Assembly: GCF_017377795.1 (NCBI RefSeq)
Contig: NZ_JAFRDR010000016.1
Span: 1-64,000 of the forward strand
DNA length: 64,000 nucleotides
Direction: 5' to 3'
Origin: Williamsia soli
Lineage (GTDB): Bacteria; Actinomycetota; Actinomycetes; Mycobacteriales; Mycobacteriaceae
Both the position numbers and the translations under genes were made by a program. Positions 5,050-43,005 of this stretch are shown here, in pieces. The notes under the pieces were generated by a model, which did no database searches, was not told the DNA's origin, and worked only from the letters and a program-made list of their open reading frames with translations. Each line of letters begins with the position of its first letter. Position 1 is the stretch's first letter.

Positions 5050-5065
5050 CTATATTACAATAATA
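5050..5065 (-). promoter_or_regulatory. AT-rich dyad operator candidate, site 1 (divergent LEH/Rieske promoter)
   Basis: On the minus strand this reads TATTATTGTAATATAG. It contains a perfect inverted repeat ATATTA-TTG-TAATAT (5052-5066). It matches 14 of 16 positions of the island consensus CATTATTRTAATATCG. It lies between divergent genes starting at 4991 and 5236, so one site could control both operons. Confidence 0.6.
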
Positions 5066-5235
5066 TCTATGCAGCGGGCCACAGTTTGAGTCATAGCTCG
5101 CCTGACAGCCTCAGGCGGCGATGAGAGCCGGGTTCCACAGCGCCGCGCAGACTCACCGCGCCTGCGCGAGGAGATTTGCTTCGGCAACCCGTCAGCGTCC
5201 TGCATCGGTTTGCAGCCAAACAGCGAAGGATAGAG

Positions 5236-6555
5236 ATGTCGTCCATGAACACCGACGTGCCGTCCACGTCCAGCGTCCATCCACAAGATCGTTGGAGCGT
5301 CTTGACCCGCACGGGCCCTGGCGAGCCGGCAGGCGATCTGCTCCGCCGATACTGGCAGCCCATCGGCATCGCGGCGGAGTACGCCGCGGGAGCGCCGCCT
5401 GCCCACATCAAGGTGCTGAGCGAAGATCTTGTTCTCTTCCGCGACGACTCTGGTGAACTGGGTTTGCTGGCGCTCCGGTGCCCTCACCGTAACGCCGACC
5501 TCAGCTACGGCCGCATCGAAGACGGTGGCTTGCGCTGTCCGTACCACGGATGGTTGTTCGACCGTGACGGTGCTTGCTTGGAGCAGCCGAATGTCCCCGC
5601 CGCACAGCGCACCGTCGCGAACTGGCGCCAACCCTCGTTCCCTGTGCAGGAACGTGGCGGTCTCGTGTGGGCATATCTGGGCACGGGCGAACCGCCGGTC
5701 CTGCCCAACTACCCATTCATCGACGGCCCCTCCGAGCACATCTACATCAACCGCTGGTTGTCGGAGTGCAACTACCTCCAGGCCAACGAGGGCAACATCG
5801 ACCCGAGCCACACCTCATTCGTCCACCGCATGGAGCATCCCGCGGCCGACGCGACCATGACGGGCTTCGAGGCAGACTCGGCTCCGCGGCTCTCGGTCGT
5901 CGAGACGAGCTACGGCTTCCGGCTCCTGGCCGAGCGCGACTACGTCGACGAGAAGACCTTCTTGCGATGCTCGAACTTCATCCTTCCGAATGCGGCTTCG
6001 GCCAACGGTTTCGAGGCGATGTACGGGCTGGGGGGAGCCACGATGTTGTGGCACGTCCCCATCGACGATCACACGCACTACCGCTATGAGGTCACATACC
6101 ACGCAAAGAATGAGATCGCCTCCGAAATTCTGGATGCGTCGGTCAAAGCAGAGCTCGACGAGAACGGAAAGCGACGCAGGCTGTTGGAGAACCGGTTCCT
6201 TCAGGACCGCTCAGAGATGATCGACAAGACGTTCGCCGGTGTGGGTACCGCGTTCCCGATCCACGATCTGCTGGTCACGGAGTCCATGGGCTCGATCAGC
6301 GACCGTCGTACCGAGCACCTCACCCCATCGGATCTGGGTGTCATGCGCGCGCGTCGCATGCTCCTGCAGGCCTTGGAAGACGTCTCGGCAGGCAAAGAGC
6401 CCAAGGGCGTGTGGCGTGACGCCAGCCTGGGATCTTTCCAAGATTTCGTCACCTTTTCGGACTGGATCGAAAAAAGCTCCGATCCGGCAGCGCACGCCGA
6501 GCAGATGACCAAGCGGAACATCTACGCCCGCAACGAACCGACTACCGCGAACTGA
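5236..6555 (+). CDS. Rieske aromatic ring-hydroxylating oxygenase, phthalate 4,5-dioxygenase (Pht3)-like
   Basis: 439 residues from the ATG at 5236, preceded by GAAGGA; this equals the usual Pht3 length. Rieske [2Fe-2S] ligands are C82-x-H84 and C101-x2-H104. The mononuclear iron motif is D189-x2-H192-x4-H197 (DPSHTSFVH). It belongs to the homomeric class that includes phthalate 4,5-dioxygenase and O-demethylases. It would insert dioxygen into an aromatic ring, or demethylate or hydroxylate it, with electrons from the reductase encoded just downstream. The exact substrate is not predictable. It is first gene of a five-gene operon. Confidence 0.9.
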   Translation: MSSMNTDVPSTSSVHPQDRWSVLTRTGPGEPAGDLLRRYWQPIGIAAEYAAGAPPAHIKVLSEDLVLFRDDSGELGLLALRCPHRNADLSYGRIEDGGLRCPYHGWLFDRDGACLEQPNVPAAQRTVANWRQPSFPVQERGGLVWAYLGTGEPPVLPNYPFIDGPSEHIYINRWLSECNYLQANEGNIDPSHTSFVHRMEHPAADATMTGFEADSAPRLSVVETSYGFRLLAERDYVDEKTFLRCSNFILPNAASANGFEAMYGLGGATMLWHVPIDDHTHYRYEVTYHAKNEIASEILDASVKAELDENGKRRRLLENRFLQDRSEMIDKTFAGVGTAFPIHDLLVTESMGSISDRRTEHLTPSDLGVMRARRMLLQALEDVSAGKEPKGVWRDASLGSFQDFVTFSDWIEKSSDPAAHAEQMTKRNIYARNEPTTAN

Positions 6556-6660
6556 CGACGGCAGGGCCACAGAGTCGGCGCACAGGGCAGCTACAAGTGT
6601 GCCGACTCGAAGGGTCCTGATCTCAGCTCGACAAGTCGAAGATCGACGGAGTGAATGCGA

Positions 6661-7626
6661 ATGATGAACAGAGCACCGAAACAGATCGATGTGATCGTCG
6701 CCGAGGCCACGCTCGAGGCCGAAGGGGTCGTGTCGGTGAAACTGGTCGCCGCCGACGGCGGTGATCTCCCCCCATGGGACGCCGGGTCTCATGTTGATGT
6801 CTACATCGAACCGGGGCTGATCCGGCAATACTCACTCTGCGGTGACCCCCGCGACGTGAGTTCGTACCGTCTGGGGATTCTGCTCTCAGAGCTCAGTCGC
6901 GGCGGCTCGAAGGCCATGCACGCTCTGGATGCGGGACATCGCCTCACGATCGGCGCTCCCCGTAACAACTTCGAGCTGATCGAGACGGCGCAGAAGAGCA
7001 TTCTGATCGGCGGTGGAATCGGCATCACTCCGCTCATGAGCATGGCAATCCGATTGAATCAGATCGAGCAGCCCTTCGAGTTCCACTACTGCGCGCGAAG
7101 CTACCGGCGAGCGGCGTTCCTCCAAGAACTCATGCAGGAGCCGTTCGGGTACCGGATGTGGGGCCATTTCGACGATGAGCCGCCCCAGATGTTCTCGCCC
7201 GATGTGCATCTCGCTGCGCCCGACGCCGGCACACATCTCTACGTGTGTGGACCAACGGGGTTCATGGACTTTGTGACCGGCAGCGCCCTTGCACTCGGGT
7301 GGGCCCCAGAGCGGATTCACACCGAGAGCTTCAACGCCGACGCTGTCGACGAGACCGGTGACACGTTCACAGTGCATGCCGCCAGATCCGGCATCACCGT
7401 CGAAGTTCCGTCAGGACGTTCCATCGCGGAGGTGTTGTTCGATCACAACGTCCGAATCCCGACCTCGTGCGCCCAGGGCATCTGCGGAACGTGCATCACG
7501 ACGGTGATCGACGGTGTTCCTGATCACCGCGACTCGTATCTGACCGACGCAGAGAAAGAGAGCAACACCGAGATCGCAGTGTGCTGCTCGCGTGCGAACT
7601 CGGCCAAATTGACCCTGGACGTCTGA
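6661..7626 (+). CDS. phthalate-dioxygenase-reductase-type FMN/[2Fe-2S] oxidoreductase
   Basis: About 321 residues from ATG 6661 (GGAG nine bases upstream; an ATG at 6655 is also in frame). The order is flavin-binding barrel (RQYSLCGDP), NAD-binding domain (LIGGGIGITPLMSM) and C-terminal plant-type ferredoxin with ligands in SCAQGICGTC and CC. This is the Pht2/VanB architecture, passing electrons from NAD(P)H to a Rieske oxygenase. It is the only such reductase in the window, so it may serve all three Rieske oxygenases. Confidence 0.93.
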   Translation: MMNRAPKQIDVIVAEATLEAEGVVSVKLVAADGGDLPPWDAGSHVDVYIEPGLIRQYSLCGDPRDVSSYRLGILLSELSRGGSKAMHALDAGHRLTIGAPRNNFELIETAQKSILIGGGIGITPLMSMAIRLNQIEQPFEFHYCARSYRRAAFLQELMQEPFGYRMWGHFDDEPPQMFSPDVHLAAPDAGTHLYVCGPTGFMDFVTGSALALGWAPERIHTESFNADAVDETGDTFTVHAARSGITVEVPSGRSIAEVLFDHNVRIPTSCAQGICGTCITTVIDGVPDHRDSYLTDAEKESNTEIAVCCSRANSAKLTLDV

Positions 7627-7654
7627 CGACTGTCCAAGAACTGGAAGAAGATCA

Positions 7655-8677
7655 ATGGCAAGAATCGTTCTCGGAATAGGATCCTCACACGGACCCATGT
7701 TGTCGACGCCGCCCGATCAATGGGGTCTGCGCGTCGGTGCCGACAAGTCCAACCCTGAGCAGTGGTACAAGGGGAACAGTTACACGTTCGACGAATTGGT
7801 CGATCTGCGAAGTGAATCGAACTTCGAGGCAGAGGCCAACGTCGACGTGTGGGCGCAGAAGCACCGGGCCTGCCGGGCCGCTCTGGACAAACTGGCAGAT
7901 GTGTTCGAGGCTGCGGAAGTCGACGTCGTGGTCATCTTCGGCAACGACCAGATGGAGATCTTCGCGGAGCCGTTGATTCCCGCGATCTCGGTGTGGCGCG
8001 GTGAAGAGATCCCCAATTACTTCCCAGGGGAGGAATACCTGAGCCGGTTGCCGGTCGGCATCGAGGTCTCGGTGCCCGGTCACGTAGCGCCCGAGGGCGC
8101 TACCAACCCCGGGCACCAAGAGTTGGCAGACAGCATCATCTCTCAGGCCATGAACGACAACTTCGATGTAGCCGTGCTTCGGGAGCTGCCACCGCACACC
8201 AATCACATTCCGCACGCTTTCGGATTCATCTACCGACAGATCATGCGGGACAGAATGATTCCTTCTGTCCCCGTGCTCTTCAACACCTTCTACCCACCCA
8301 ACCAGCCTACGGTGAGCCGGTGCTACTCCTTTGGAGAATCGGTGGTCAAAGCCATCGAGGAGTGGGATTCCGACGCTCGCGTCGCGCTCGTCAGCTCCGG
8401 CGGTCTCACGCACTTCGTGATCGATGAAGAAGTGGACCGGGCACTGTTCGACACATTGGAACAGCAGTCCATCGAACCATTGGCATCTCTGGGGGAAGAC
8501 ATCTACAACGCGGGAACCTCCGAGATCAAGAATTGGATCCCCGTGGCCGGCGCGATGGCCACCCTGGGATTGAAACCCACTGTCGTCGACTACGTCCCGT
8601 GCTACCGGTCTGCCGCGGGAACAGGCATCGCGATGGGGTTCGTCTACTGGACCGCCGAAGACGAGGGCAACGCATGA
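7655..8677 (+). CDS. LigB-type (class III) extradiol ring-cleavage dioxygenase
   Basis: 340 residues of the LigB superfamily. His12 in GSSHGPML matches the first Fe(II) ligand of LigB, and a central HTNHIPHAFGF segment carries further conserved histidines. No separate LigA-type small subunit is seen. Such enzymes open catecholic rings, such as protocatechuate or gallate types, next to the diol. Its place after a Rieske oxygenase and reductase fits cleavage of the hydroxylated product. It overlaps the following flavoprotein gene by 4 bp (ATGA). Confidence 0.88.
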   Translation: MARIVLGIGSSHGPMLSTPPDQWGLRVGADKSNPEQWYKGNSYTFDELVDLRSESNFEAEANVDVWAQKHRACRAALDKLADVFEAAEVDVVVIFGNDQMEIFAEPLIPAISVWRGEEIPNYFPGEEYLSRLPVGIEVSVPGHVAPEGATNPGHQELADSIISQAMNDNFDVAVLRELPPHTNHIPHAFGFIYRQIMRDRMIPSVPVLFNTFYPPNQPTVSRCYSFGESVVKAIEEWDSDARVALVSSGGLTHFVIDEEVDRALFDTLEQQSIEPLASLGEDIYNAGTSEIKNWIPVAGAMATLGLKPTVVDYVPCYRSAAGTGIAMGFVYWTAEDEGNA

Positions 8678-10011
8678 GCGGCCCCCAGGACAAGTACGAC
8701 GCTCTGGTGATCGGAGCCGGTGTGGGCGGGTTGTGCGCAGCGGCGCGACTCGTACACCGCGGGTACCGGACACTCGTGGTCGAGAGTCTGCCGTACGTCG
8801 GCGGTCGGGCCAGCACTCGGGACATCGACGGTTTCAAGATCAACAACGGTGCCATCGTCGTGGAAACCGGTGGAGTCGCCGAGGAGACGTTCCGGGAAAT
8901 CGGAGCAGAACTGAACTTGCGGTTCCCCGACGCTCCGATGATGATGCGTATCGGTGACAAAGACCTCGACATTGCCGGGGGCCGAGTGAACGCGGCCATG
9001 TCGGTGGTCGCACGCCGTGGCATGATGCTTCTCGATCGTTTCGGGGGCACCGGCGCAGGAAAGGCGAAAGCCAATCTGTCGACCGCTGATTGGGTGGCCA
9101 GGTACACCAAGAATGAGACCGTCAACGGGGCAGTTCGCAACATGTGTGCCTCGATCTTCTCGGTCGGTGCCGACGAGCTCCCCGCGGGAGTGTTCTTGGC
9201 CTATTTCGCGCGAACCAATGCGCTTGCGGCCAAAGTCGGCTTCTGCCCAGAGGGAACCATTGGTGTCTGGAAGTCGCTGGCGTCAGCGATCGTTGGGCGC
9301 GGCGGCGATGTGTGGTTGTCTGCAACCGTGACATCGCTTCGAATCGAAGATGGTGTCGTGACGGGCGCCTCCATCAAAAAGGGCAGGAAGACATTCGAGA
9401 TCGGCGCCGACGTCGTGGTGAGTAACATAGGCCCGCGGGGGACCCTGAGGCTGGTCGGCGAAGAGAACGCGACGCCGAACTATCGGGCGGGAGTCCGGGC
9501 CGGCGACAGACCCACGTCGATGATCAGTGTCAACTTCGCGAGCCAGGAAGATCTCATCTCTGCCCCTGGCGTACTGAGCTTCGCGAGAACCCAACGGCTC
9601 TGCTATGTCGCCAATTTCACCGCAACATGCCCGGAGATGGCTCCCCCCGGGTGGAATCTGTACGTCGGAGCTTCCGTACCGCGGCCCGCGCTCGGTGACT
9701 TCGATGAAAGCGCCGAGATCGAGCTACTCCACCAGGATCTCCGCGAGCAGATTCCAGGATTTGAACGTGCGCGCATCATCTCGACCGAGGTGAATCGCGG
9801 TGACTGGCCGACTCAGCGCGCGGTCGCGGGATCCGATGCTGCCAGGACCACGCCGTTTCCGAATCTGTGGAATGTCGGTGACGGAGTCAAAGAATATGCG
9901 ACCGGCGGTACTGGCGCCTGTGCGCAGACTTCAAAACTGGTGGTGGAAGAGATCGAAAGCCGTTATCCCGCATCGCTCGCGCCCCACAGAAAACAAATGT
10001 CGGAAGTCTAA
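8674..10011 (+). CDS. FAD-dependent oxidoreductase, phytoene-dehydrogenase-like (paralogue B)
   Basis: 445 residues, starting at the ATGA overlap with the dioxygenase gene; the longer in-frame ORF from 8533 is rejected. The N-terminal FAD site is VIGAGVGGLCAAARL, followed by VGGRAST, with a C-terminal NLWNVGDG. It is closely related to the protein at 2147-3526 in the operon transcribed the other way. A role in desaturating or aromatising a cyclic intermediate is plausible. No exact family member with a known reaction is recognised. Confidence 0.87.
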   Translation: MSGPQDKYDALVIGAGVGGLCAAARLVHRGYRTLVVESLPYVGGRASTRDIDGFKINNGAIVVETGGVAEETFREIGAELNLRFPDAPMMMRIGDKDLDIAGGRVNAAMSVVARRGMMLLDRFGGTGAGKAKANLSTADWVARYTKNETVNGAVRNMCASIFSVGADELPAGVFLAYFARTNALAAKVGFCPEGTIGVWKSLASAIVGRGGDVWLSATVTSLRIEDGVVTGASIKKGRKTFEIGADVVVSNIGPRGTLRLVGEENATPNYRAGVRAGDRPTSMISVNFASQEDLISAPGVLSFARTQRLCYVANFTATCPEMAPPGWNLYVGASVPRPALGDFDESAEIELLHQDLREQIPGFERARIISTEVNRGDWPTQRAVAGSDAARTTPFPNLWNVGDGVKEYATGGTGACAQTSKLVVEEIESRYPASLAPHRKQMSEV

Positions 10012-10036
10012 AAGTGTTACGAGAATGGAGATAAAC

Positions 10037-11437
10037 ATGACCAAGAGCAAACTGCCGGGTGAAGCAACACCCAACAGCGAATCCCCGCTGAAGGACCGGC
10101 ATGGCGTGGTCGTCGTCGGAGCGGGGCCTTCGGGTCTGGCCGCCGCCTACCGTCTGCAACAGGCCGGCGTCGACGTCATCGTCGTCGATCCCGGCGAGGA
10201 CGTCGGCGGGAAGATGAAGTCCCGCGAGGTCAACGGTTTCCACATCGACCTCGGCCCGACCGTTGTCCCACCCACCCATACGAATATGATCCCGATCATC
10301 AAAGAGCTCGGAATGCTCGACACCCCGGGAGGCGCAGAGGTCGCTGGATCGATCTTCGGTATCGCCCAAGGTGGGGGCAAGTTCGTGAATCTCGATACTG
10401 CGAACATCGCGCTGGCCATGGCCAAGACCAAGCTTGTCGGTCTCCGTGGCAAGCTGGCGCTCGCACGGATCGGGTTCGATGTCTTCCGCGCCCGCAAGTT
10501 CGTTCGCCATCCAAACCTGGGAAACGCTGCAGCACTGGATACTTCGAGCGCCGAAGAGTACGCGCGGCACCTCGATCCGAAGTTGTACGACAACTTGATC
10601 GACGTTCTACTACACAGCCAGGTCGGTGCTCCGGGCAGCACCCTGTCAAAGGTCGACCTGCTGCGTCTCATCTTCGTCGAGATCGGCCGGCCCGGCCCTA
10701 CACGCGCCTTCACGAACGGCGTGCAGTCGTACGCACGAAAGATTGCCGAGAACTTCCCCGTTTCGCTCAAGACCACGGTTGAAGAGCTCGTAGAGCACAA
10801 GAACGGCGTCACCGTGACCGTGAACGTCGACGGCGAGCGGAGGGTGATCGAGGCTGATTCGGCGATTGTCACCGCTGATGCACATTCGTCGGCCAAGTTC
10901 CTGACGCAGCTGTCGGAGTCCGGCAGGGCTTTCCTGAACAGCATCACGTACACGTCGATGACGAACGTTCATGTCGGACTGTCGAAACCGACCAAAGAAT
11001 CGGCCTACATGGCCCTGATTCCCGCGTCTGTGGAGCCGCGCGTGCTGGCAGTGGTGTTCGAGCGCAACCGGTCGCAGAAGTGTGTTCCGCCCGGCAAGGA
11101 GATGATCTCGATCTACTCATCGGATGCGATCGCCGAAGAGTACTGGGATGCCGACGATGAGGTCTTGACCAAGACGCTGATCGAGGCCACTGAGAACATC
11201 GTTCCGGGTTTCAGCGAGAACATCGAGTTCACATTCGTGAACCGCTGGCCGCGCGTCGTCTCCGCCAGCGCACCGGGGCGTTACAAGGAGCTCGAAAAGT
11301 TCCAGCGCGGTATCTCGCACTGGAAGCGGATTCACATCGCCAGTGATTATCTCGGAAACACCAACATGGATTCCGCGACGAGCTTGGGTGAGATCGCGGC
11401 CAAGGATGTGCTCAGTTCCAACCTCTTGTCTAAGTGA
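10037..11437 (+). CDS. FAD-dependent oxidoreductase, protoporphyrinogen-oxidase/phytoene-desaturase-like (paralogue C)
   Basis: 466 residues from ATG 10037, with GGAG six bases upstream. Features are VVVGAGPSGLAAAYRL, then DVGGKMKSREVNGFHIDLGPTV reduced to VGGKMKS plus the conserved GPTV region. The C-terminus has a SATSLGEIAAKD segment in place of the paralogues' NLWNVGDG. It is more distant from A and B than they are from each other. It is last in the Rieske-reductase-LigB operon. It probably acts on a hydrophobic or quinonoid intermediate. Confidence 0.85.
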   Translation: MTKSKLPGEATPNSESPLKDRHGVVVVGAGPSGLAAAYRLQQAGVDVIVVDPGEDVGGKMKSREVNGFHIDLGPTVVPPTHTNMIPIIKELGMLDTPGGAEVAGSIFGIAQGGGKFVNLDTANIALAMAKTKLVGLRGKLALARIGFDVFRARKFVRHPNLGNAAALDTSSAEEYARHLDPKLYDNLIDVLLHSQVGAPGSTLSKVDLLRLIFVEIGRPGPTRAFTNGVQSYARKIAENFPVSLKTTVEELVEHKNGVTVTVNVDGERRVIEADSAIVTADAHSSAKFLTQLSESGRAFLNSITYTSMTNVHVGLSKPTKESAYMALIPASVEPRVLAVVFERNRSQKCVPPGKEMISIYSSDAIAEEYWDADDEVLTKTLIEATENIVPGFSENIEFTFVNRWPRVVSASAPGRYKELEKFQRGISHWKRIHIASDYLGNTNMDSATSLGEIAAKDVLSSNLLSK

Positions 11438-11687: not shown

Positions 11688-11703
11688 CAATATTATAATA
11701 AGG
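11688..11703 (+). promoter_or_regulatory. AT-rich dyad operator candidate, site 2
   Basis: CAATATTATAATAAGG, with the perfect palindrome TATTATAATA at 11691-11700. It matches 13 of 16 consensus positions. It lies 88 bp upstream of the aldehyde dehydrogenase start. The site also contains a TATAAT-like -10 hexamer, so promoter and operator may overlap. The rest of the 354-bp gap (11438-11791) shows no gene, only a weak CTGCCG/CGGCAG hairpin at 11446-11469. Confidence 0.55.
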
Positions 11704-11791
11704 TCGAAATAGATCGACAGTGACGACCGTCACTCACCTCGCGCCACGCCGTTGGCGGCCATCTGGAAGCACTATGAAGGAGCTGGGCTTG

Positions 11792-13213
11792 ATGAGTCCT
11801 CAGGAGCCGATGCAATCGATGCTGATCGACGGAAAGTTGGTGGACGGCGATCGCGAGTTGGCTGTGATCAACCCGGCAACGGGAGAGCCGTTCACGACAG
11901 TCGCCTGTGCGTCGGCCGAACAGGTCGCCGCTGCAGTCGACGCCGCGCACAGGGCTTTTCCGGCGTGGTCGAGTACGGGCATCGACGAACGTCGGGCGAT
12001 CCTGGTGCGAATTGCAGAGGCGGTGGAGGCCAACGTCACTACCCTCGCCCAGCTCACGACAAGCGAACAGGGTAAGCCGTTTCCGATCGCGGTGGGCGAG
12101 GCGATGTTCCTGGCGCAGTTCATCAGGTACTTCGCAGAGTTGCCCTTCGAGCCCGAGATCATCGAAGACAGCGCAGAGCGTCGCGCAGTCGCCTATCGGC
12201 GGCCGCTCGGCGTCGTCGCCGCGATCGTTCCATGGAACATGCCGGTGTCGATGATCGGGACGAAGCTCCCGGCTGCGCTCCTTGCCGGTAACACCATCGT
12301 CCTCAAGCCGGCGGGGACCACACCGGCGGCCACACTGAAATTTGGTGAACTGATCGCTGACATCGTGCCCCCGGGCGTTGTCAACATCGTCTCGGACGAT
12401 AACGACCTCGGAGACGTGTTGACCGGCCATCCGAGCGTGCGAAAGGTGTCGTTCACCGGTTCGACCCCCACCGGAAAGCACATCGCAGCCCAGGCTGCGG
12501 GCACGCTGCAGCGCCTCACGCTCGAGCTCGGCGGTAACGACGCTGGCATCGTGCTGGACGACGCCGATCCGAAAGCGGTGGCGCCGGGAATCTTCATGGG
12601 CTCGTTCTTCAACAGCGGCCAGATCTGCGTGGCACTGAAGCGGCTGTACGTTCACGAATCCGTCCACGATGATCTCGTTGCAGAGCTCGCAACTCTCGCC
12701 GAGAATGCCGCCGTCGGAGATGGTTTCGATGATGGGATCATGTTCGGTCCAATTCAGAATCAAAAACAATTCGACCGGGTCAAGGACCTTCTCGAGGACA
12801 GTCGCACGAACGGGCGGATAGTCGCGGGAGGCGAGCCGAACGGGCCTGGGTTCTTCCTGCGGCCCACCATCGTCACCGACGTCACCGACGGCGACCGGAT
12901 TGTCGACGAGGAACAGTTCGGGCCGATTCTGCCCGTCATCAAATACAGCGACGTCGACGATGCGGTTCGGCGCAGCAATGCGTCGCCGTTCGGCCTCGGC
13001 GGTTCTGTGTGGTCCTCGAACCCGGAACGCGCCGCTGCGGTGGCCGGTCGACTCGAGTGCGGCACGGTGTGGGTCAACAAGCACGGTGAGCTTGCGGCGA
13101 ACATTCCGTTTGCCGGTGCCAAGGACTCGGGCGTAGGCAGCGAGCTCGGATTGCGGGCTTTGGACGAGATGACCCAACAACAGGTCGTCAGCTCGATTCC
13201 GGCAGCCGTCTAG
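11792..13213 (+). CDS. NAD(P)-dependent aldehyde dehydrogenase
   Basis: 473 residues from ATG 11792, preceded by AAGGAG; upstream in-frame starts at 11720 and 11774 lack a good ribosome site. ALDH signatures are present: LELGGND with the general-base Glu, GQICVA with the catalytic Cys, and IVPWNMP in the cofactor region. It oxidises an aldehyde to the acid. In this context a ring-cleavage semialdehyde is a reasonable substrate, because LigC-type dehydrogenation would be needed between extradiol cleavage and a LigJ-like hydratase. It is first gene of a seven-gene operon behind dyad site 2. Confidence 0.93.
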   Translation: MSPQEPMQSMLIDGKLVDGDRELAVINPATGEPFTTVACASAEQVAAAVDAAHRAFPAWSSTGIDERRAILVRIAEAVEANVTTLAQLTTSEQGKPFPIAVGEAMFLAQFIRYFAELPFEPEIIEDSAERRAVAYRRPLGVVAAIVPWNMPVSMIGTKLPAALLAGNTIVLKPAGTTPAATLKFGELIADIVPPGVVNIVSDDNDLGDVLTGHPSVRKVSFTGSTPTGKHIAAQAAGTLQRLTLELGGNDAGIVLDDADPKAVAPGIFMGSFFNSGQICVALKRLYVHESVHDDLVAELATLAENAAVGDGFDDGIMFGPIQNQKQFDRVKDLLEDSRTNGRIVAGGEPNGPGFFLRPTIVTDVTDGDRIVDEEQFGPILPVIKYSDVDDAVRRSNASPFGLGGSVWSSNPERAAAVAGRLECGTVWVNKHGELAANIPFAGAKDSGVGSELGLRALDEMTQQQVVSSIPAAV

Positions 13214-13338
13214 CGAGCGTGGGTCGGCGCAGCCCCGCCGGTCAGGACCACGTTCGGTCACGTTGTCTCCCAACGGAGATGACACATCAACTGAGCACAA
13301 GAACGCGTCGTGAGCGCGACGCGGAAGAAGGAGCACCA

Positions 13339-14646
13339 ATGTCACAGGATGCGACAGTCGACCGCCAATGGATCGATGAGGAGAAAGGCCTCGTGAATCG
13401 TGAGGTCTTCGGCAGTCCCGAAGTCCACGAGCTCGAAAAGGACAAGATTTTCCGAAAGTCATGGTTGTACCTCGGCCACGAGACCGAGATCCCGAACGCG
13501 GGAGACCACGTGACCCGCACGATGGCGGGCGACTCCGTGATCGTTGTCCGACGTCCGGACGGGACGGTCGGCGCCTACCTGAACAGCTGCGCGCACCGCG
13601 GCGTCAAGGTGTGCCGGGTCGACTCGGGTAACACCCGCCGTTTCGTGTGCCCTTACCACGGTTGGAGTTATGGGACCGACGGTGCCCTGATCAGCACCAA
13701 CTTCGACGCCTTGTATCCCGAAGGCACCGACTTCACCACCATGGGACTCGTTCCGGTGACGCGACTGGACAGCTACAAGGGAATGATCTTCGGCAACTGG
13801 AGTTCCGAAGGCGAAACGCTTGATGAGTTCCTCGGTGATTTCCGTTGGTACCTCGACGTGTTTTTCGCTCGAACCCCTGGCGGTGCAGAAGTTCTCGGCC
13901 CTCCGCAGCGCTTCATTGTCAACGCCGACTGGAAGACTGCGGCGATCAACTTCGGAACCGACAACACACACGTCATCACGACGCATATCGGTCCGATGAC
14001 ACTCAGCTCGACACCGTTCACGCCACCGGATCTGATGGCGGCAATGGGGGAGGCCGTTCAGGTCAGCACAGGCAATGGCCACAGCTGTTCGTTGGTGAGC
14101 CTGCCCGGAGATCGGTACGCGCACTACCCCAAAGAGCTGCATGACCTATACGACGAGCAACTCGACGACGATCAGGCAGGGTTGCTCGCGAACCTCGCCA
14201 TCGGTGTGTCGACGGTGTTCCCCAACCTGTCGTTCATCGAGAACACCCCCTCCGAAGTGGAGCCCGGTGTCTTCATGAAAGGGCTGCTGCTCAGGCAGTG
14301 GCACCCCATCGCGCCCGGCCAGATAGAAGTCCTGAGTTGGCAATTCGCAGAGGTCGAGGCCTCAGACGAGTACAAGCAGGCCGTTCATGTTCGAGCCGTC
14401 AACGACTTCGGCGTCGGTGGCCTGTTCGAGCAGGAGGACGTCGAGCTGTGGTCATCGGTCGGTTCGACCACCACGTCGCCGGCTGCACGCGACCACCCGT
14501 TCGTTTTCGCCACAGCGGTTCCGTTCATGGACACCCCCGTCACAGATCACGCAGGCCCGGGCAACGCTTATCGGCCATTCGTTGCAGAAATAACCCAATT
14601 CAAGTTCCTGCAGCACTGGAACAAGCTCATGACGGAAGGCGCATAA
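13339..14646 (+). CDS. aromatic ring-hydroxylating dioxygenase, alpha subunit
   Basis: 435 residues from ATG 13339, with AAGAAGGAG five bases upstream. Rieske ligands are C84-x-H86 and C104-x2-H107. Mononuclear iron ligands are D208, H211 and H216 in DNTHVITTH. It is a two-subunit (alpha-beta) benzoate/naphthalene-type oxygenase, unlike the two homomeric Rieske proteins in the window. It joins the beta-subunit gene by a TAATG overlap. No ferredoxin or reductase gene lies in its own operon. Confidence 0.93.
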   Translation: MSQDATVDRQWIDEEKGLVNREVFGSPEVHELEKDKIFRKSWLYLGHETEIPNAGDHVTRTMAGDSVIVVRRPDGTVGAYLNSCAHRGVKVCRVDSGNTRRFVCPYHGWSYGTDGALISTNFDALYPEGTDFTTMGLVPVTRLDSYKGMIFGNWSSEGETLDEFLGDFRWYLDVFFARTPGGAEVLGPPQRFIVNADWKTAAINFGTDNTHVITTHIGPMTLSSTPFTPPDLMAAMGEAVQVSTGNGHSCSLVSLPGDRYAHYPKELHDLYDEQLDDDQAGLLANLAIGVSTVFPNLSFIENTPSEVEPGVFMKGLLLRQWHPIAPGQIEVLSWQFAEVEASDEYKQAVHVRAVNDFGVGGLFEQEDVELWSSVGSTTTSPAARDHPFVFATAVPFMDTPVTDHAGPGNAYRPFVAEITQFKFLQHWNKLMTEGA

Positions 14647-15185
14647 TGACCGAAGCAACCGTATCGACAGTTCCGCCGGCCCTGACGCCGGTGTCGGCTC
14701 AGGTCCACCACGACGTCAGCCAGTTCCTCTTTCGCGAGGCGGCGCTGCTCGACGGTGATCGTTACGACGAATGGCTGGCCGTCTTGGCGCCGGACGTGCA
14801 TTACAAACTGGGAGCGCGCACCCTGCGTGCATCAGACCAGCCCGCTCGGGGATACCCGATCGTCGACAATCAGGCGAACGAGCTGCGCATTCGCGTCCAG
14901 CAGATCTCGAATGCGAAGTTGACCTACTCGGAGAATCCCCACTCGATCACAAGGCGGCACATCTCGAACATCATCGTCGAACAGGCCGCTGATTCCGGTG
15001 AACTGGCGGTCAGGAGCAATACACTGCTGTTCCGCAGCCAAGGGGTCGATGGAACACAACACACCTACTCCGGGTTGCGCGAAGACCGCCTTCTCGTCGA
15101 CGGTGACAGCTTCCTGTTGGCAGAGCGGACGGTAACACTCGACCTGTCGGTCATTCCGAGCATGAATGTCAGCGTGCTGTTTTGA
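14646..15185 (+). CDS. aromatic ring-hydroxylating dioxygenase, beta subunit
   Basis: 179 residues with the NTF2-like beta-subunit fold: an FLFREAALLDGDRYDEWL start, a central RRHISNIIV strand and a C-terminal LAERTVTLDLSV. It has no cofactor and stabilises the alpha3-beta3 oxygenase. Start and stop overlap by one base with the alpha gene. It overlaps the next gene by a TTGA. Such tight coupling points to a fixed alpha-to-beta ratio. Confidence 0.92.
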   Translation: MTEATVSTVPPALTPVSAQVHHDVSQFLFREAALLDGDRYDEWLAVLAPDVHYKLGARTLRASDQPARGYPIVDNQANELRIRVQQISNAKLTYSENPHSITRRHISNIIVEQAADSGELAVRSNTLLFRSQGVDGTQHTYSGLREDRLLVDGDSFLLAERTVTLDLSVIPSMNVSVLF

Positions 15186-15892
15186 GCTCGTCGACACCGA
15201 GTACGACGGGTCGCGGACATGGCGGCGGCGATGGCTTGCTCGAACGCCTCCGCCGGCTCGATACCTGCGCTGTGTCCGATGCTCTCGACAAGCACCACCT
15301 GGTAGGCGCGATAGTCGGCATCGGGCGTCTGTCCGCGGGCGGTGGTACGGTCGCCGGCCGCGCGACAACTGTTCAGTTGGGCACGCCGCCAACGGACTCC
15401 GAAGGACCCAAGCGTCACCTCGGTTCTGCGGCCGCCGACGCTGCCGGTCCGAGCGAGGTCATAGTGGTCGCAAACGGCGGCCGCACCGATTGCGGTAGCT
15501 GGGGCGGTCTTCTCTCTCGGGGAGCAGCAGTGCGCGGCGTCGCCGGAGTGGTGGTCGACGGTGCCGTGAGAGACGTCGATGAAGCGTCAGAGGCGGGTCT
15601 GCCGATTTTTGGCCGCGCGACCACGTGCGTGACGGCCCGCGGTCGTACCGCCGAACTGGCGTGGGGCGTGCCGGTGGAGATCGACGGGATCGAAATCAAG
15701 CCGGGCGATCTGGTACTTGCCGACTCCAATGGCTGCGTAGTCGTGCCGGAAGCGGTTGCAGATCAGGTGCTCACCACTGCAGAGGACATCGCCGACAAAG
15801 AACATTCGATGGCCCGTGCCATAGACGCCGGATCACCGGTGTCGGTGGTCATGTCGGGCGAGTACGAGGAGATGACCAATGGGACAAAGTGA
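15182..15892 (+). CDS. RraA-fold aldolase, HMG/CHA-aldolase (LigK)-like, copy 1
   Basis: 236 residues from a TTG overlapping the beta-subunit stop; no better ATG is in frame. The HMG/CHA aldolase signatures are intact: GGRTDCGSWGGLL with R101, and DGAVRD with R130-D131. These enzymes cleave 4-carboxy-4-hydroxy-2-oxoadipate or 4-hydroxy-4-methyl-2-oxoglutarate to pyruvate plus an oxo-acid, using a divalent metal. The LigJ-like hydratase three genes downstream makes this the best LigK candidate of the three copies. Confidence 0.87.
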   Translation: MSSSTPSTTGRGHGGGDGLLERLRRLDTCAVSDALDKHHLVGAIVGIGRLSAGGGTVAGRATTVQLGTPPTDSEGPKRHLGSAAADAAGPSEVIVVANGGRTDCGSWGGLLSRGAAVRGVAGVVVDGAVRDVDEASEAGLPIFGRATTCVTARGRTAELAWGVPVEIDGIEIKPGDLVLADSNGCVVVPEAVADQVLTTAEDIADKEHSMARAIDAGSPVSVVMSGEYEEMTNGTK

Positions 15893-16550
15893 TGGCGACG
15901 TTCTCGAGCGATTGGGCGGTCTTGGTACGGCAACAATCTCAGATGCGTTGGACCGATTGGGTATTGCGGGTCAGGCTCTGGGTATTGCACCGCTCGAGTC
16001 GTCGTTTCGGCTGATCGGCCGCGCCTGGACGCTCCGCTACGGTCCGGTGGGAGAGGACCGTGGGTCCGTCGGTGACTACATCGATGATCTCGGCCCAGGT
16101 GACGTGGTCGTTCTCGACAACCAGGGCCGCGTCGACGCCACGGTCTGGGGTGACCTGCTGACCACGACTGCGAGCCGCAGAGGTGTTGCCGGAACCGTCA
16201 TCGATGGTGTGTCTCGCGACAGCGATCGGAGCACCGCACTGAACTATCCGTTGTTCACCCGGGGCAACTGGATGCGAACAGGGAAAGACCGAGTGCGCGT
16301 GGAAGCCACGCAGGTGCCGGTGTCGATCGGTGGTGTGCGGGTGGAGCCGGGCGACCTGCTCATCGGGGATAGGGACGGTCTGGTGGTGGTCCCCGCAGCT
16401 CGAGCGGACGAGGTCCTCGCCGCCGCTCAGCGGATCGAGCACGCCGAGTCCTTGATTCGCGCCGCCGTCGAATCCGGCACGTCGCTTCGTGACGCGCGTG
16501 CGGAGGTCGGCTACCACGACTTGCAAACACGCCAGGAGGAGACGAAGTGA
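15879..16550 (+). CDS. RraA-fold protein, HMG/CHA-aldolase-like, copy 2
   Basis: 223 residues, overlapping copy 1 by 14 bp. The key motifs persist in altered form: NQGRVDATVWGDLL, and DGVSRD with the Arg-Asp pair. A typical GDLLIGDRDGLVVVP segment follows. It is catalytically plausible but clearly diverged from copy 1, so it may use a different 2-oxo acid, or pair with copy 1 or 3 in a mixed oligomer. A LigK-type role alone would not need it. Confidence 0.82.
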   Translation: MGQSDGDVLERLGGLGTATISDALDRLGIAGQALGIAPLESSFRLIGRAWTLRYGPVGEDRGSVGDYIDDLGPGDVVVLDNQGRVDATVWGDLLTTTASRRGVAGTVIDGVSRDSDRSTALNYPLFTRGNWMRTGKDRVRVEATQVPVSIGGVRVEPGDLLIGDRDGLVVVPAARADEVLAAAQRIEHAESLIRAAVESGTSLRDARAEVGYHDLQTRQEETK

Positions 16551-23495: not shown

Positions 23496-23529
23496 CGACC
23501 GCCGCCTCGCGAGCCTGGAGGACACCGCT

Positions 23530-31542: not shown

Positions 31543-32433
31543 ATGAAAATTGCAAATAACGGCGGCAGAACGGTACTGCTGACGAAATCAGGCCCTGTCG
31601 ATGTTCACGAGGCCAGTGCCGGCAAGTTCGGCCCAGGCCCATCAGCCGTGTTCGAGCACTGGGAAGAGTTCCGCGCCTGGGCGGATGCTGAAAGCAGTGC
31701 GGTCGGCAGTATGAGCGAGGGCGACCAGTCGGCATGGCTGGACACCGTAGGTGAGCTCGGCGCACCCAGTCCACAGCCCCGGCAGGTGTTCGGCGTTGGG
31801 TTGAACTACAAGGGCCACATCGCCGAGGCCGGCATGAAGGAGCCCGCGCACCCGCTGGTTTTCACCAAATTCGCGTCGTGCATTGTCGGAGGTGACCAGA
31901 TCACCGAGCTGCCCGAGGGAGGCGTGGACTGGGAAGTCGAGCTGGCGATCGTCATAGGTGCGGATGCACACCGAGTCGAAGAAGACAAAGCGTGGGATTT
32001 CGTCGCAGGCTTGACCCTGGGTCAGGATCTTTCCGAGCGCACTCTTCAGCACTCCGGTCCGGCCCCGCAGTTCGGGCTCGCCAAATCGTTCCCCGGATTC
32101 GGCCCCATCGGACCTGTACTCGTGACACCCGACGACCTACCCGACCGAAACGACCTGGAGATCGGCTGTTCGATCAATGGCGAAACCATGCAGCTGGGCA
32201 GAACTGGCGACATGCTGTTCAGCGTGGCCAGTCTGGTGTCGTGGTTGTCCCACGCCGTCCCGCTCTATCCGGGCGATGTCATCTTCAGCGGAACGCCGTC
32301 GGGAATTGGTGCCACCCGTACACCTCCCCGCTTCCTCGATGAGGGTGACGAGCTGGTGAGCTGGCTCGAGGGCGTTGGGACGATCCGATCGAAGTTCACC
32401 GGCCCTCGGTACAAGGGGCCGAAGCTCAGCTGA
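31543..32433 (+). CDS. fumarylacetoacetate-hydrolase-family protein (copy 1)
   Basis: 296 residues from ATG 31543. FAH core motifs are GVGLNYKGH, then DWEVELAIVIG with metal-binding acidic residues, then FSGTPSGIG near the end. The family includes acylpyruvases, 2-hydroxydienoate hydratases and decarboxylases. It would process the ring-fission product of the preceding enzymes. The gene closes the operon that begins at 27964. Confidence 0.9.
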   Translation: MKIANNGGRTVLLTKSGPVDVHEASAGKFGPGPSAVFEHWEEFRAWADAESSAVGSMSEGDQSAWLDTVGELGAPSPQPRQVFGVGLNYKGHIAEAGMKEPAHPLVFTKFASCIVGGDQITELPEGGVDWEVELAIVIGADAHRVEEDKAWDFVAGLTLGQDLSERTLQHSGPAPQFGLAKSFPGFGPIGPVLVTPDDLPDRNDLEIGCSINGETMQLGRTGDMLFSVASLVSWLSHAVPLYPGDVIFSGTPSGIGATRTPPRFLDEGDELVSWLEGVGTIRSKFTGPRYKGPKLS

Positions 32434-34008: not shown

Positions 34009-34923
34009 ATGTATGATCCGTTGGTGGACGGACGGCTTGCGAACCTCGACCTCAATCTGCTGGTGCCTCTACAAGCGCTGCTGCAGGAACGGCACATCAC
34101 GCGGGCGGCCGCTCTTATCGGCATCACGCAGCCCGCGATGAGCAACGCGCTACGTCGAGCGAGGGCTGCCCTCGGTGATGAGCTCCTCGTCCGTTCAAAA
34201 TCGGGCTATGCGTTGACACCTCGTGCCGAGATGGTGCGTGAGACCCTCAACGAAGTACTCCACACCATCGACGACCGAATTTTTCAAAGCCCGCAGTTCG
34301 ACCCTGAGTCGAGTGTCCGGCGATTCGTTGTCGGCGCATCAGGTGCAACCGTGTACGCCGCGCTACGCCCGATCGTCGCCCAGGCGACTGCGCGAAACCG
34401 GCGCGTCTCTTTCTCGTTCGTCGATGTGACCCGGGCGGTTGCCTCGCTGTTGGACCGGCCTGATGTGGATCTGATCCTGCTCCCCGAAGTCATTCCCACC
34501 GAGCACGCGCGCGAACGCCTCTACGACGAGACGTGGTCGCTGGTCGTCTGCGCCGAGAATCGACAGGTCGGCGATCGGGTGTCCGAACATCAGCTCGCCA
34601 CGCTGCCGCGAGTTGTGTTCGAGTCCGATGGCTTGCGCACCCACGCGGAGTTGGCTCTCGCGTCCTTGGGTGGGCTGGCGCCATCGACTGTGGTCAGTGG
34701 CGACTTCTGGTCGCTCTTTCATCTCATTGCGGGCACGCCCTTGATCGGCTGCGTTCAAACGACGATCGCCAGGAATCTCGCCGCGAACAACGGACTACGC
34801 ATTGTCGAACCACCGACGCCCCTTCCAGGGTTCGGCATCGACATCGTGCGAAATCCCCTCAGGCGCACCGATCCCGCGGTCGACTGGCTGATCGGCGAGC
34901 TGAAGAGGGCGACGCGGGACTGA
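34009..34923 (+). CDS. LysR-family transcriptional regulator
   Basis: 304 residues. The N-terminal winged HTH lies at about residues 10-70 (HITRAAALIGITQPAMSNALRRAR) and is followed by a periplasmic-binding-like effector domain. It is divergent from the DHDPS-family gene with about 100 bp between. That is the classical layout for a LysR activator of the neighbouring operon. Its overall form resembles NodD/PcpR-type regulators of aromatic catabolism. The effector is unknown. Confidence 0.92.
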   Translation: MYDPLVDGRLANLDLNLLVPLQALLQERHITRAAALIGITQPAMSNALRRARAALGDELLVRSKSGYALTPRAEMVRETLNEVLHTIDDRIFQSPQFDPESSVRRFVVGASGATVYAALRPIVAQATARNRRVSFSFVDVTRAVASLLDRPDVDLILLPEVIPTEHARERLYDETWSLVVCAENRQVGDRVSEHQLATLPRVVFESDGLRTHAELALASLGGLAPSTVVSGDFWSLFHLIAGTPLIGCVQTTIARNLAANNGLRIVEPPTPLPGFGIDIVRNPLRRTDPAVDWLIGELKRATRD

Positions 34924-35050: not shown

Positions 35051-35066
35051 CATTATTATAATATCG
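35051..35066 (+). promoter_or_regulatory. AT-rich dyad operator candidate, site 5
   Basis: CATTATTATAATATCG fits the consensus fully (R = A) and is 18 bp upstream of the SDR ATG. It contains TATAAT, so it may overlap the -10 element and act by steric exclusion. Confidence 0.6.
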
Positions 35067-35084: not shown

Positions 35085-35918
35085 ATGAGTCGTCTCGCAG
35101 GCAAAGTAGCGTTCATCACCGGGGTTGCCCGAGGGCAGGGCAGATCGCACGCGATCCGGATGGCCGAAGAAGGCGCATCGATCATCGGCGTCGACAGCCT
35201 CGCTGATGTGACGTCAGCGCCGTATTCACTTGCAACGCAGGAAGATCTGGATGAGACGGTCGTCTTGGTCGAGAAGGCCGGCGGGAAGATCGTGGTCAAG
35301 CAGGCCGATGTTCGAGATCAGAACGCACTCGACGCTGCAGTGGCTGAGGGACTCGATACCTTCGGATCGTTGGACATCGTCTGTGCGAACGCCGGCATCA
35401 TGCCGTCAATCGTTCCCTCGTGGGAGTGGTCGGAAGCCGATTGGCAGGAGACTCTCGATGTGGACCTCGGGGGCGTATGGCGAACCACCAAAGCCGCCAT
35501 TCCGGCAATGCTGGCAGGAGGCCGGGGTGGATCGATCATCCTCACGAGCTCCGCGCTAGGCCTCAAGGCCGCTCCGGGTCTGGTCGGATACGTCGCGGCA
35601 AAGACGGGAATCGTAGGCGTGATGCGCACGCTTGCACTGGAATTGGGCGGTTCGGGTATCCGGGTCAACTCGGTTCATCCGACAACCGTGAGCACTGACA
35701 TGATCCTCCACGACAACTTGTACAAGGCCTTCCGACCTGACCTGGAGGCTCCCACCAGGGAAGATGTCGAGCCAATTTTGCAGACCACCACAGTGCTGGG
35801 CATCCCTTGGGTTGAGGCGGGAGATGTCACCGACGCAGTGGTGTGGCTTGCCTCGGATGAGTCGCGGTACGTCACCGGTGTCACCCTCCCGATCGACGCA
35901 GGCAACGGCGTCAAGTAG
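35085..35918 (+). CDS. SDR-family oxidoreductase, mycofactocin-coupled type
   Basis: 277 residues from ATG 35085; the frame extends upstream across the dyad but that part is unlikely to be translated. The cofactor motif is TGVARGQGRSHA, typical of mycofactocin-dependent SDRs with bound, non-exchangeable nicotinamide. The catalytic segment is SSALGLKAAPG-x-YVAAKTG, with Ser, Tyr and Lys. It likely oxidises an alcohol of the pathway. It stands alone behind dyad site 5 and is followed by an IS insertion. Confidence 0.88.
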   Translation: MSRLAGKVAFITGVARGQGRSHAIRMAEEGASIIGVDSLADVTSAPYSLATQEDLDETVVLVEKAGGKIVVKQADVRDQNALDAAVAEGLDTFGSLDIVCANAGIMPSIVPSWEWSEADWQETLDVDLGGVWRTTKAAIPAMLAGGRGGSIILTSSALGLKAAPGLVGYVAAKTGIVGVMRTLALELGGSGIRVNSVHPTTVSTDMILHDNLYKAFRPDLEAPTREDVEPILQTTTVLGIPWVEAGDVTDAVVWLASDESRYVTGVTLPIDAGNGVK

Positions 35919-36144: not shown

Positions 36145-36275
36145 TGTCAACGGTCATCGGGAACTGCCCATGTGCGGACTTGAAAACTGCCCGTAGGCGG
36201 CCAATAAGAACTGCCCGGTGGCGGACATGAATCTGCCCATGCGGCGGTGCCCGCTACCGGTAGGTCGCGGTAAGC

Positions 36276-36482
36276 TCAAGGCTTTGACCCCCTGTCCGTG
36301 CAGGGCTTGGGCGAGGCGGTCGCGGTCGCCAACGTTTTAGGCATCAGCTCGTCGAAACCGCTCGGGTGCAGGTTCGAGGAGATCGCCACCGACCGGCGTT
36401 CGTAGGCCGCTTCCACGATCCGATAGAGCCCCTCGGCGGCGTCAGCAACGACGGGCAAGAGCCCGACGTCATCAACAATCGC
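36276..36482 (-). pseudogene. istB: IstB-like ATPase remnant
   Basis: Two IstB pieces are left. VDDVGLLPV with AAYERRSVAISSNLHPSGF and the ELMPKTLATAT segment come from the C-terminal half. The family's end, LAQALHGQGVKAL, follows in another frame after a deletion that removed the intervening DRLLHH-type region. The N-terminal half, including Walker A, is absent: the sequence is fused directly to IstA residues. It cannot be functional. Confidence 0.82.
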
Positions 36483-37210
36483 GTACTGCGGTTGCAGGTT
36501 CGTCTCGGTAGGCACGATGTCAGCTTTGGCGAGTTTGACGGCGTTCTCCACCCCGCCTTTGGAGGCCGGCTCGCACGTCAGCACCGAAATGCCGTAGTAG
36601 CGGCCGAACGTCACCGCGTGCCGATTACGGACCGGAACCCCAGCGACGTGCCCGGTCATAACGGTCTTCTCGTTGTCGGTCAGCAGCTACGTCGGGGCGC
36701 CGCCGACGATCCGTAAGGCGCGGTCCAGGCCGGCGAACACGCTCGGCCCGGTCCGGTCATGCAGAGCGATGACGATCCGAAAGCGGCACCACGCCAACCA
36801 CGCCACCAGCAGTACCACTTTGCGGCCACCCACGACTGGCCCGTCACCGAAGTCATACTGCAGCCACAATCCGGGTTCGGTGACCCACGGCCGGTGCACT
36901 CGCGTATTACCCAGGCGCCATTGAGCTTTGATCTCCGCCAAGGCTCGGCGGGTGGTGCGTTCGGTGCCGGTGTAGCCCAACGCGGTCAACCGTTCGTGGG
37001 CTTTGTCGCCGAGGATCTTGCCACGCGAGTCCTGCACCCACTTCTCGAGGTTCGGTATGAGTTCGTCGATCAGACGGGCACGGCGGACCTGCGGTTCGAG
37101 GCCGGCGTCGCGGTCTTGACCGCCTTCTTGACTGTGTGATGCGAGCAGCCGCACAGCTCGGCCGCCGCGCGATACGACCCGGTTAGATCGTAGGCCTTGA
37201 GTATTTCCAT
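36483..37210 (-). pseudogene. istA: IstA-like transposase remnant
   Basis: Starts at ATG 37210 with an HTH region (LTGSYRAAAELCGCSHHTVK). A frameshift near 37140-37155 moves to the frame carrying RARLIDELIPNLEKWVQDS and the LQYDFGDGP catalytic-core segment. A TAG at 36687-36689 replaces the Tyr codon expected in GGAPTY-type sequence. Reading resumes with LLTDNEKTV and SKGGVENAVKLAKAD, then breaks off at TETNLQPQ where istB sequence begins. It is inactive through several independent lesions. Confidence 0.85.
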
Positions 37211-37379
37211 GACTTCTCCGTCAGACTTCAATGTGGTCTCTCCCGTGGGATTCGATACGACTAGGCATCGACATCGAAACCTCGGGAGAGGCCCCCACGG
37301 CGCAGACGCGCCGCACAGGGATCAACAGGTCTGGGCAGATTCATGACCGCCTACGGGCAGTTTTTCATGTCCGCCGACA

Positions 37380-40548: not shown

Positions 40549-41226
40549 TCAGTCGCCGCTGGACGAGAGCCGACGGTGCGCCGCATCGTTGATTTCACGT
40601 TCATCGACCGCGGCCGGCGCCGAGATGTCGGTGGGTACCGTTGAATCGCTCCGCATACCGTTGATCAGCAGATAGAGGGTGCGGCGCCACAGATCCGGAT
40701 GTTCGGCCCCGCCGAAGTCTCGAACTGCGCCGAGAGCTATCAACAGAACCGGAAAGTCGCTGGGCTCCACGAACGTTCTGAGCCACCCACCATCCTGGGC
40801 GGCGCCGACCATTTTGGCGATCAATGGGTTGAGGCGTTCGAGAGCGTGGACGCCGTGCTCGCCTGGCGTGTGTGCGCCCTCCAAGATCAGTTGCCGCAGC
40901 CCCTTGTTCGCCGCCATACTCTCAGCGCCCTCGATCACGAATTGCAGTAGAGCGTCCGCAGGATCGCGCGTAGCCAGTGCCCGTTGAGCCACCTCGATGA
41001 CTTCGTCCGTCTTTTCGACGAACAGCGCATCGATGAGTCCATCCTTGTCACCGAAGCGCCGGTAGACCGTGCCGACACCGACCCCGGCTCGGTTCGCCAC
41101 GTCGGCCATCGTCGTCTCGAGGCCCTTCTCGGCGAACACCTCCATCGCGACGGCCGAGATCTTCTCGGCATTGCGAACGGCGTCACGGCGCAACGGGCGA
41201 GCCTCCGGGGCTCCGATTGTTGTCAT
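40549..41226 (-). CDS. TetR-family regulator divergent from MFS exporter
   Basis: 225 residues from ATG 41226. The HTH is at about residues 25-60 (MADVANRAGVGVGTVYRRFGDKD). It is followed by a SBI-like C-terminal domain. It is divergent from the MFS gene with two inverted repeats between them, the standard layout of a drug-exporter repressor. Confidence 0.92.
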   Translation of the reverse strand: MTTIGAPEARPLRRDAVRNAEKISAVAMEVFAEKGLETTMADVANRAGVGVGTVYRRFGDKDGLIDALFVEKTDEVIEVAQRALATRDPADALLQFVIEGAESMAANKGLRQLILEGAHTPGEHGVHALERLNPLIAKMVGAAQDGGWLRTFVEPSDFPVLLIALGAVRDFGGAEHPDLWRRTLYLLINGMRSDSTVPTDISAPAAVDEREINDAAHRRLSSSGD

Positions 41227-41272
41227 GGTCACTCTCACTTCGATCCGGCGTTGTGCTCACACTCTACCTGAT

Positions 41273-42874: not shown

Positions 42875-42893
42875 CCGTCGCTACGGATGACAG

Positions 42894-42934
42894 AACAGTT
42901 CGGCACTCACCTCGAGGGTGGGTGCCGGACTGTT
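42894..42934 (+). terminator. long hairpin after MFS gene
   Basis: AACAGTTCGGCACTCACC pairs with the complementary GGGTGGGTGCCGGACTGTT side. There is one mismatch and one wobble pair, with a small central loop. It ends with TTT, 20 bp after the MFS stop. Confidence 0.75.
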
Positions 42935-42989
42935 TGGTGGCGTCGGCTGCCGAAACCAGTGTTTGGTGAGTGACAACCCACTCTTTCAA

Positions 42990-43005
42990 CATTATAGTAA
43001 TACTG
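42990..43005 (+). promoter_or_regulatory. AT-rich dyad operator candidate, site 6, at the BASS start
   Basis: CATTATAGTAATACTG matches 13 of 16 consensus positions and holds the perfect repeat ATTA-TAG-TAAT. Its last base is the G of the likely GTG start. TATAGT inside it may be the -10 hexamer, which would give a leaderless transcript. Confidence 0.5.

Follow-up and report, generated by a model that had tools for sequence, protein, structure and literature searches.

Regulators of the FadR subfamily (FCD type) of the GntR proteins recognise operators of the general form TNGT-N2/3-ACNA (PMC4494728), and BioR, a member of this subfamily, has the box-less operator TTATMKATAA (PMC4494728, PMC4554459). 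In Corynebacterium glutamicum, two FCD paralogues (GntR1 and GntR2) are functionally redundant on shared sites (PMC2230225). VanR2 of Pseudomonas sp. NGC7 has its critical repeat directly after the -10 element and is released by syringate or 3-O-methylgallate (PMC12314914), and the palindrome of AlkR in P. aeruginosa SJTD-1 covers -10 regions (PMC12042122). Here we analysed a stretch of Williamsia soli DNA (62% GC; hereafter the window) comprising the first 64 kb of the 82.6-kb contig C7 (NZ_JAFRDR010000016.1) in a genome of 6.07 Mb in 25 contigs; an AT-rich dyad, the 16-mer CATTATTRTAATATCG, occurs at six places in an aromatic-degradation cluster, with catabolic or transport genes downstream of all six. 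The six dyads are most likely operators that let a local GntR-type regulator control the pathway as one unit, and we consider it fairly probable from the sequence that they belong to one local regulon read by the GntR/FCD regulator encoded at 27026-27802 (here GntR2), probably together with its paralogue (here GntR1).

A search of the window with CATTATTRTAATATCG and up to three mismatches returned seven rows at six places, the place at 11688-11703 matching on both strands, whereas shuffles gave a mean of 0.06 rows and 0 of 100 reached seven. All six coordinates given in a preliminary description of this DNA were recovered exactly, with 13-16 of 16 matching letters. The sites, whose ten-base core is TATTRTAATA, are as follows:

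Site 1: 5050-5065, minus strand; between limonene-epoxide-hydrolase (LEH)-like genes (minus) and the Rieske-LigB operon (plus); two mismatches; exact core at 5053-5062
Site 2: 11688-11703, both strands; upstream of aldehyde dehydrogenase (ALDH), Rieske alpha/beta, three RraA-type and amidohydrolase genes; two mismatches (minus strand); core a perfect palindrome, TATTATAATA
Site 3: 18444-18459, plus strand; upstream of GFO/IDH/MocA, Rieske, phosphoenolpyruvate (PEP)-mutase-like and ABC transporter genes; three mismatches; exact core
Site 4: 27888-27903, plus strand; between GntR2 (minus) and the operon of amidohydrolase, extradiol dioxygenase-like, hydroxylase and FAH genes (plus); no mismatch
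Site 5: 35051-35066, plus strand; upstream of a mycofactocin-type short-chain dehydrogenase/reductase (SDR) gene; no mismatch; core a perfect palindrome, TATTATAATA
Site 6: 42990-43005, plus strand; on the predicted -10 of a BASS transporter gene, ending on its GTG; three mismatches

Wholly intergenic positions, proposed earlier for all six, are found for five, and the last letter of site 6 is also the first base of the likely GTG start codon of the BASS gene; the non-coding share of positions 1-44000 is 11.3% in our own gene list. The distances to a start, described earlier as 0 to about 170 bp, are correct, with 170 bases separating site 1 from the Rieske ATG at 5236. The symmetry is less uniform than the preliminary description had it: the odd-centred repeat ATATTA-nnn-TAATAT, which had been ascribed to several sites as perfect, is perfect at site 1 only, whereas sites 2 and 5 are perfect in an even-centred register (TATTATAATA) and mismatches occur in the remaining three. 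Pairing is found in 26 of 28 arm cells in the even register and in 25 of 28 in the odd register ATTA-N3-TAAT. We favour the even register because its arm pairs 4-13, 5-12 and 6-11 are invariant in all seven sites, i.e., the six listed above and a further copy on contig C8 described below.

The exact core occurs at five places in the 6.07 Mb, all of them within 5053-35063 of the window; by our own arithmetic, the chance that five random places fall in one 64-kb stretch is about 1e-8. With up to three mismatches, the 16-mer matches eight places in the whole genome, namely the six sites, C8:4326-4341 (two mismatches; counted together with an overlapping opposite-strand match at 4323) and C19:272214 (three mismatches), and the reversed 16-mer, searched through the genome in the same way, has no match. 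The core with one mismatch occurs at 13 places: the six sites, C8 and six scattered places (two on C11 and one each on C18, C19, C21 and C23), and we regard the scattered six as background because the reversed 10-mer gives eight rows at this looseness. A symmetric matrix built from the seven sites scores 22.4-28.1 at the six sites and, overlapping offsets of its own sites aside, at most 5.8 elsewhere in the window, 8.2 in the rest of C7 and C8, and 15.2 in 20 block-shuffled windows. The preliminary description would have been undermined by many unrelated matrix matches; the patterns, run through the whole genome, and the seven-site matrix, run over C7 and C8, found almost none outside the cluster.

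The copy on C8 lies in DNA that is 84.8% identical over 105 bp (C8:4234-4338) to this segment of the window:

42898-43002, plus strand: promoter segment with the site-6 dyad, the counterpart of C8:4234-4338

The shared segment consists of a hairpin (window 42894-42934), which scored as terminator-like on C8 and not in the window, and the dyad-bearing promoter; on C8 it precedes genes for an AMP-binding acyl-CoA synthetase and a biotin-dependent carboxylase, so the two loci, both catabolic, have different genes downstream. The C8 site is best read as a diverged copy of the site-6 promoter, and the two are not independent because they share this segment. Copying of promoters, and not selection for a binding site, might then be invoked for the similarity of all sites, the more so as a nine-base identical run stands at the same offset in two upstream regions (by eye those of sites 1 and 2; 9 of 2000 random sets, p 0.0045). 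However, a self-comparison of the window shows no other site pair, the remaining flanks appear unaligned by eye, and we hold such an origin to be highly improbable. The dyad is a cluster-specific element and probably not a generic -10, because the 16-mer and its core are almost confined to the cluster and the C8 site is a promoter copy.

The location of the sites relative to predicted promoters bears on another explanation, in which the dyad is a mere AT-rich promoter element (a -10 region, perhaps of a special sigma factor) that has no protein of its own. TATAAT or TATAGT is present within sites 2, 5, 6 and C8, and at site 6 and C8 a promoter with 10 of 12 matching letters (GTGACA-17-TATAGT) is predicted with the dyad over its -10. 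Read in the direction of the downstream gene, sites 1 (plus orientation; TGGACA), 2 (TGGACA) and 4 (TCGACA) have a TTGACA-like hexamer 12 to 7 bases ahead of the 16-mer, each with five of six letters; at the same offset site 3 has TAGCCA (four of six), site 5 three of six letters, and site 6 no such hexamer. In a test that was devised after the sequences had been seen, and with the plus orientation chosen at site 1, six random intergenic 60-mers were drawn from the window 5000 times, and no draw reached the summed -35 score or the count. When the dyad was kept and the upstream sequence randomised, site 6 and C8 were unusual (0.5 and 0.6%), and the other seven tests gave 14-80%. However, a general -10 would not stay confined to one cluster, and the features expected of a generic sigma-70 -10 are absent: there is no fixed distance to the -35 at all sites (judged on predicted hexamers) and no genome-wide occurrence in promoters (five places for the exact core, eight for the 16-mer). 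The dyad appears at two positions relative to the predicted -35: it falls within the predicted spacer in a post hoc alignment of sites 1, 2 and 4, and it overlaps the predicted -10 of site 6 and C8. Such variation would be easier to reconcile with an operator than with a promoter element of fixed position, and the ten core positions of the dyad hold the three arm pairs that are invariant in seven sites. The possibility raised earlier, that every site is only a -10 element, is thus weakened by the rarity of the dyad, which a general -10 could not show; we regard it as quite improbable. The predicted -10 at site 6 (TATAGT) ends six bases before the GTG at 43005, and the BASS mRNA may be leaderless.

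Two regulators of the FadR/FCD architecture, i.e., with an N-terminal GntR winged helix-turn-helix (HTH) and a C-terminal FCD domain, are encoded in the cluster, and both exceed the Pfam cut-offs for PF00392 and PF07729:

GntR2: 27026-27802, minus strand; GntR and FCD regulator, candidate reader of the dyad; Lys51 at HTH position 28
GntR1: 1350-2138, plus strand; paralogue of GntR2, 69% identical; Lys at HTH position 28; no dyad upstream

As described earlier, site 4 adjoins the GntR gene at 27802: it lies between GntR2 and the catabolic operon, its centre 68.5 bases from the start of the operon and 93.5 bases from GntR2, and a site nearer to the structural operon than to the regulator is the usual layout in divergons of the FadR subfamily (PMC4494728). 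The palindromes thus occupy the places expected of a FadR/FCD regulon: they precede neighbouring operons, and one separates a regulator from its target, GntR1 having none. The TKGT/ACMA boxes are missing from the operator, whose core reads TATT-RT-AATA, and compared with the subfamily frame TNGT-NN-ACNA only the G/C pair differs in the even frame (sites 6 and C8 differ by one further T).

Both proteins have Lys at HTH position 28, which we take to be the equivalent of Arg35 in E. coli FadR. Alignment of 21 of 23 relative loci (L033 and L042 gave none) found Arg at this position in 17, Pro in two, Val in one, Ala in one (the Aminobacter regulator) and Lys in none. Strict TKGT-N2/3-ACMA sites are present upstream of five of 19 relatives (19 of 21 counted, with the same two out), all five with Arg, versus 0.27 expected; no canonical site, strict or loose, was found upstream of GntR2, and the window as a whole contains 11 strict ones at scattered places. 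A correlation between HTH position 28 and the G/C pair of the operator is reported by Suvorova et al. 2015 (PMC4494728), Arg strongly preferring G/C and avoiding A/T. An exchange of Arg for Lys at position 28 might therefore be coupled to the swap of G/C for T/A in TNGT-NN-ACNA, as a natural specificity switch within the FadR subfamily, a suggestion we make tentatively and would not yet bet on. That one or both GntR proteins read the dyad seems to us likely, as judged from sequence, if well short of assured.

We propose that GntR2, probably together with GntR1, would bind the AT-rich palindrome as a dimer and block RNA polymerase, because the sites sit inside predicted promoters: at site 6 the dyad overlaps the -10, and at sites 1, 2 and 4 it falls in the spacer that separates the -35 from the -10; the same position suggests repression and not activation. 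A substrate or intermediate of the pathway would then bind the FCD domain and free the repressor (an acid of the pathway as the inducer is our guess), and this release would switch on the dioxygenase, aldolase, hydrolase, dehydrogenase and transporter operons together. Through site 4, GntR2 would control its own gene as well. An exact pathway substrate was considered and dropped.

The dyad could instead be the operator of another protein, such as one of two SbtR-like TetR regulators (330-983 and 40552-41238, both minus strand), a LysR regulator (34009-34920, plus strand), or a regulator encoded outside the window. The genes for these TetR and LysR candidates are part of the cluster or adjoin it, some sites contain by eye a LysR-like 13-base T-N11-A, and the lack of a dyad at GntR1 would be accommodated. 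However, no dyad lies upstream of 330-983, 40552-41238 or 34009-34920, so that none of the three has a site beside its own gene, the TetR gene at 330-983 adjoins a different inverted repeat (1029-1057), and the fit to the FadR frame and to residue 28 has no counterpart for the TetR and LysR proteins among those we tried. We therefore think this assignment unlikely. The repeat at 1029-1057 lies between the TetR gene (330-983, minus) and GntR1 (1350, plus), has 14-base arms that are 86% complementary, and is a candidate TetR operator.

Several observations weigh against control by GntR2 and GntR1. The window search found no dyad upstream of GntR1, where one loose canonical site, TCGTTGAACCA, occurs at 1127. 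The odd symmetry register is nearly as good as the even one and does not fit the FadR frame, and the -35 matches are individually unremarkable save at site 6 and C8. Lys at position 28 is present in three and Arg in six of the 25 GntR-family proteins of the genome (an alignment of mixed subfamilies), and no match to the core with up to one mismatch lies near the third of these Lys proteins (L076, C11:42611). The Aminobacter stretch that carries an FCD relative contains no TATTRTAATA and four matches with two mismatches, compared with 2.25 expected, and no orthologous cluster suitable for footprinting was found in our searches. A T.TT-N3-AA.A string about 260 bases before the HTH of L076 was given no weight, as about 0.4 are expected by chance (our own estimate).

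The wider distribution was followed in several genome sets. The 396 other genomes of an order-level draw contain no relative of GntR2 at E <=1e-25 and none of the site-1 Rieske protein at E 1e-80; in a phylum-level draw (396 genomes including this one) 18 others match GntR2 at E 1e-18 with 27-36% identity, a scan of GTDB contigs with GntR2 confirmed two Actinomadura loci (29-32%), and Aminobacter plasmids contain a match at 35%. No plasmid DNA match to 5001-29000 was found. The 16-mer with up to two mismatches occurs, among 151 genomes including this one, at eight places in seven other genomes, none of the same genus (reversed control: two places). The aromatic-degradation cluster looks accessory because the dyad, at this looseness, is present in none of the eight other same-genus genomes searched.

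The predicted targets, with operon limits inferred from gene order, are as follows:

2147-4991, minus strand: site 1; three LEH-like genes, then a flavin amine-oxidase-like gene
5236-11437, plus strand: site 1; Rieske, reductase, LigB-like and two flavin amine-oxidase-like genes
11774-18211, plus strand: site 2; ALDH, Rieske alpha/beta, three RraA-type genes and amidohydrolase
18539-26980, plus strand: site 3; GFO/IDH/MocA, Rieske, PEP-mutase-like and ABC transporter genes
27964-32433, plus strand: site 4; amidohydrolase, glyoxalase-fold dioxygenase-like, FAD hydroxylase and FAH genes
35085-35918, plus strand: site 5; SDR gene
43005-43868, plus strand: site 6; gene for a BASS-family transporter

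Within the window, no dyad was found at GntR1, the pair of DHDPS-like and LysR genes, the region of an IstB-like remnant, or the nitroreductase, TetR and MFS genes. Among 20 proteins scanned, only the MhpA-like hydroxylase and the mycofactocin-type SDR passed NCBIfam cut-offs, and the name Pht4, given earlier to 18539-19747, could not be confirmed beyond the GFO/IDH/MocA family and was dropped. Any two of the three tandem LEH-like genes (3573-4991) share about 70% DNA identity along a part of the gene. The IstB-like (IS21-type) fragment at 36279-36659 is flanked by an imperfect 47-base inverted repeat (36193-37378), which points to a past insertion in the cluster.

A block made up of an amidohydrolase gene, a LigB-like gene and three RraA-type genes that differ from one another, frequently joined by ALDH, recurs in DNA of alphaproteobacteria and actinobacteria, and no description of this block was found in the literature searched. 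In eight loci compared, with the second amine oxidase excluded from the queries, each member of the block including ALDH has a match in four (L050, L052, L061 and L062), only the ALDH match is missing from the stretch compared in three (L053, L063 and L065), and L064 is without RraA genes. Since the block recurs as a unit, co-regulation of the site-1 and site-2 operons is expected. Two of the eight loci have a relative of GntR1 and GntR2 with an FCD domain, adjacent to the block in Aminobacter (L050) and at a distance of about 10 kb in Polymorphobacter (L052); the other six yielded none at E 1e-10.

The regulon suggested in the preliminary description is thus supported by upstream sites nearly confined to the cluster, and GntR is a plausible candidate for its regulator. 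As in FadR/FCD systems, a short palindrome occupies the promoters of neighbouring operons, once between a GntR and FCD regulator and its target; unlike in these, GT/AC is replaced by TT/AA in the right arm of all seven sites and in the left arm of five, and position 28 is Lys and not Arg. BioR, a published exception to the box rule (PMC4494728), likewise has a 10-bp palindrome devoid of GT/AC boxes; however, it controls biotin genes in alphaproteobacteria through another operator sequence (PMC4494728, PMC4554459). In C. glutamicum, GntR1 and GntR2 are likewise two FCD-type paralogues in an actinobacterium (redundancy of the present pair would be a guess), but they run a gluconate regulon and their sites agree with TNGTNNNACNA (PMC2230225). 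VanR2 and AlkR resemble the proposed system as GntR repressors of aromatic and alkane catabolism with palindromes after or over the -10 and release by a pathway compound (PMC12314914, PMC12042122), whereas their sites (GGGATCCC and ATTGTCAGACAAT) are different and belong to another phylum, and here six or more operons share one site. The operator is undescribed as far as our literature searches reached, the searched string occurring in an oligonucleotide list of one bacterial study (PMC7783346).

We regard the system as an ordinary local catabolic regulon under a GntR/FCD regulator; somewhat unusual are the operator, which lacks the GT/AC boxes of the family, and the changed specificity residue in both candidate regulators. 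The sites provide a regulon map for the aromatic-degradation cluster and name the operons expected to respond together, the dyad and the Lys28 regulators offer a simple test of protein-DNA recognition in the FadR subfamily, and the operator, being rare and AT-only in a GC-rich host, could also be used as a clean inducible switch in laboratory strains. If true, the specificity switch would yield an AT-only operator that is nearly absent from the rest of this GC-rich genome and that would tie six transcription units, and with the copied C8 promoter a seventh, to one sensor.

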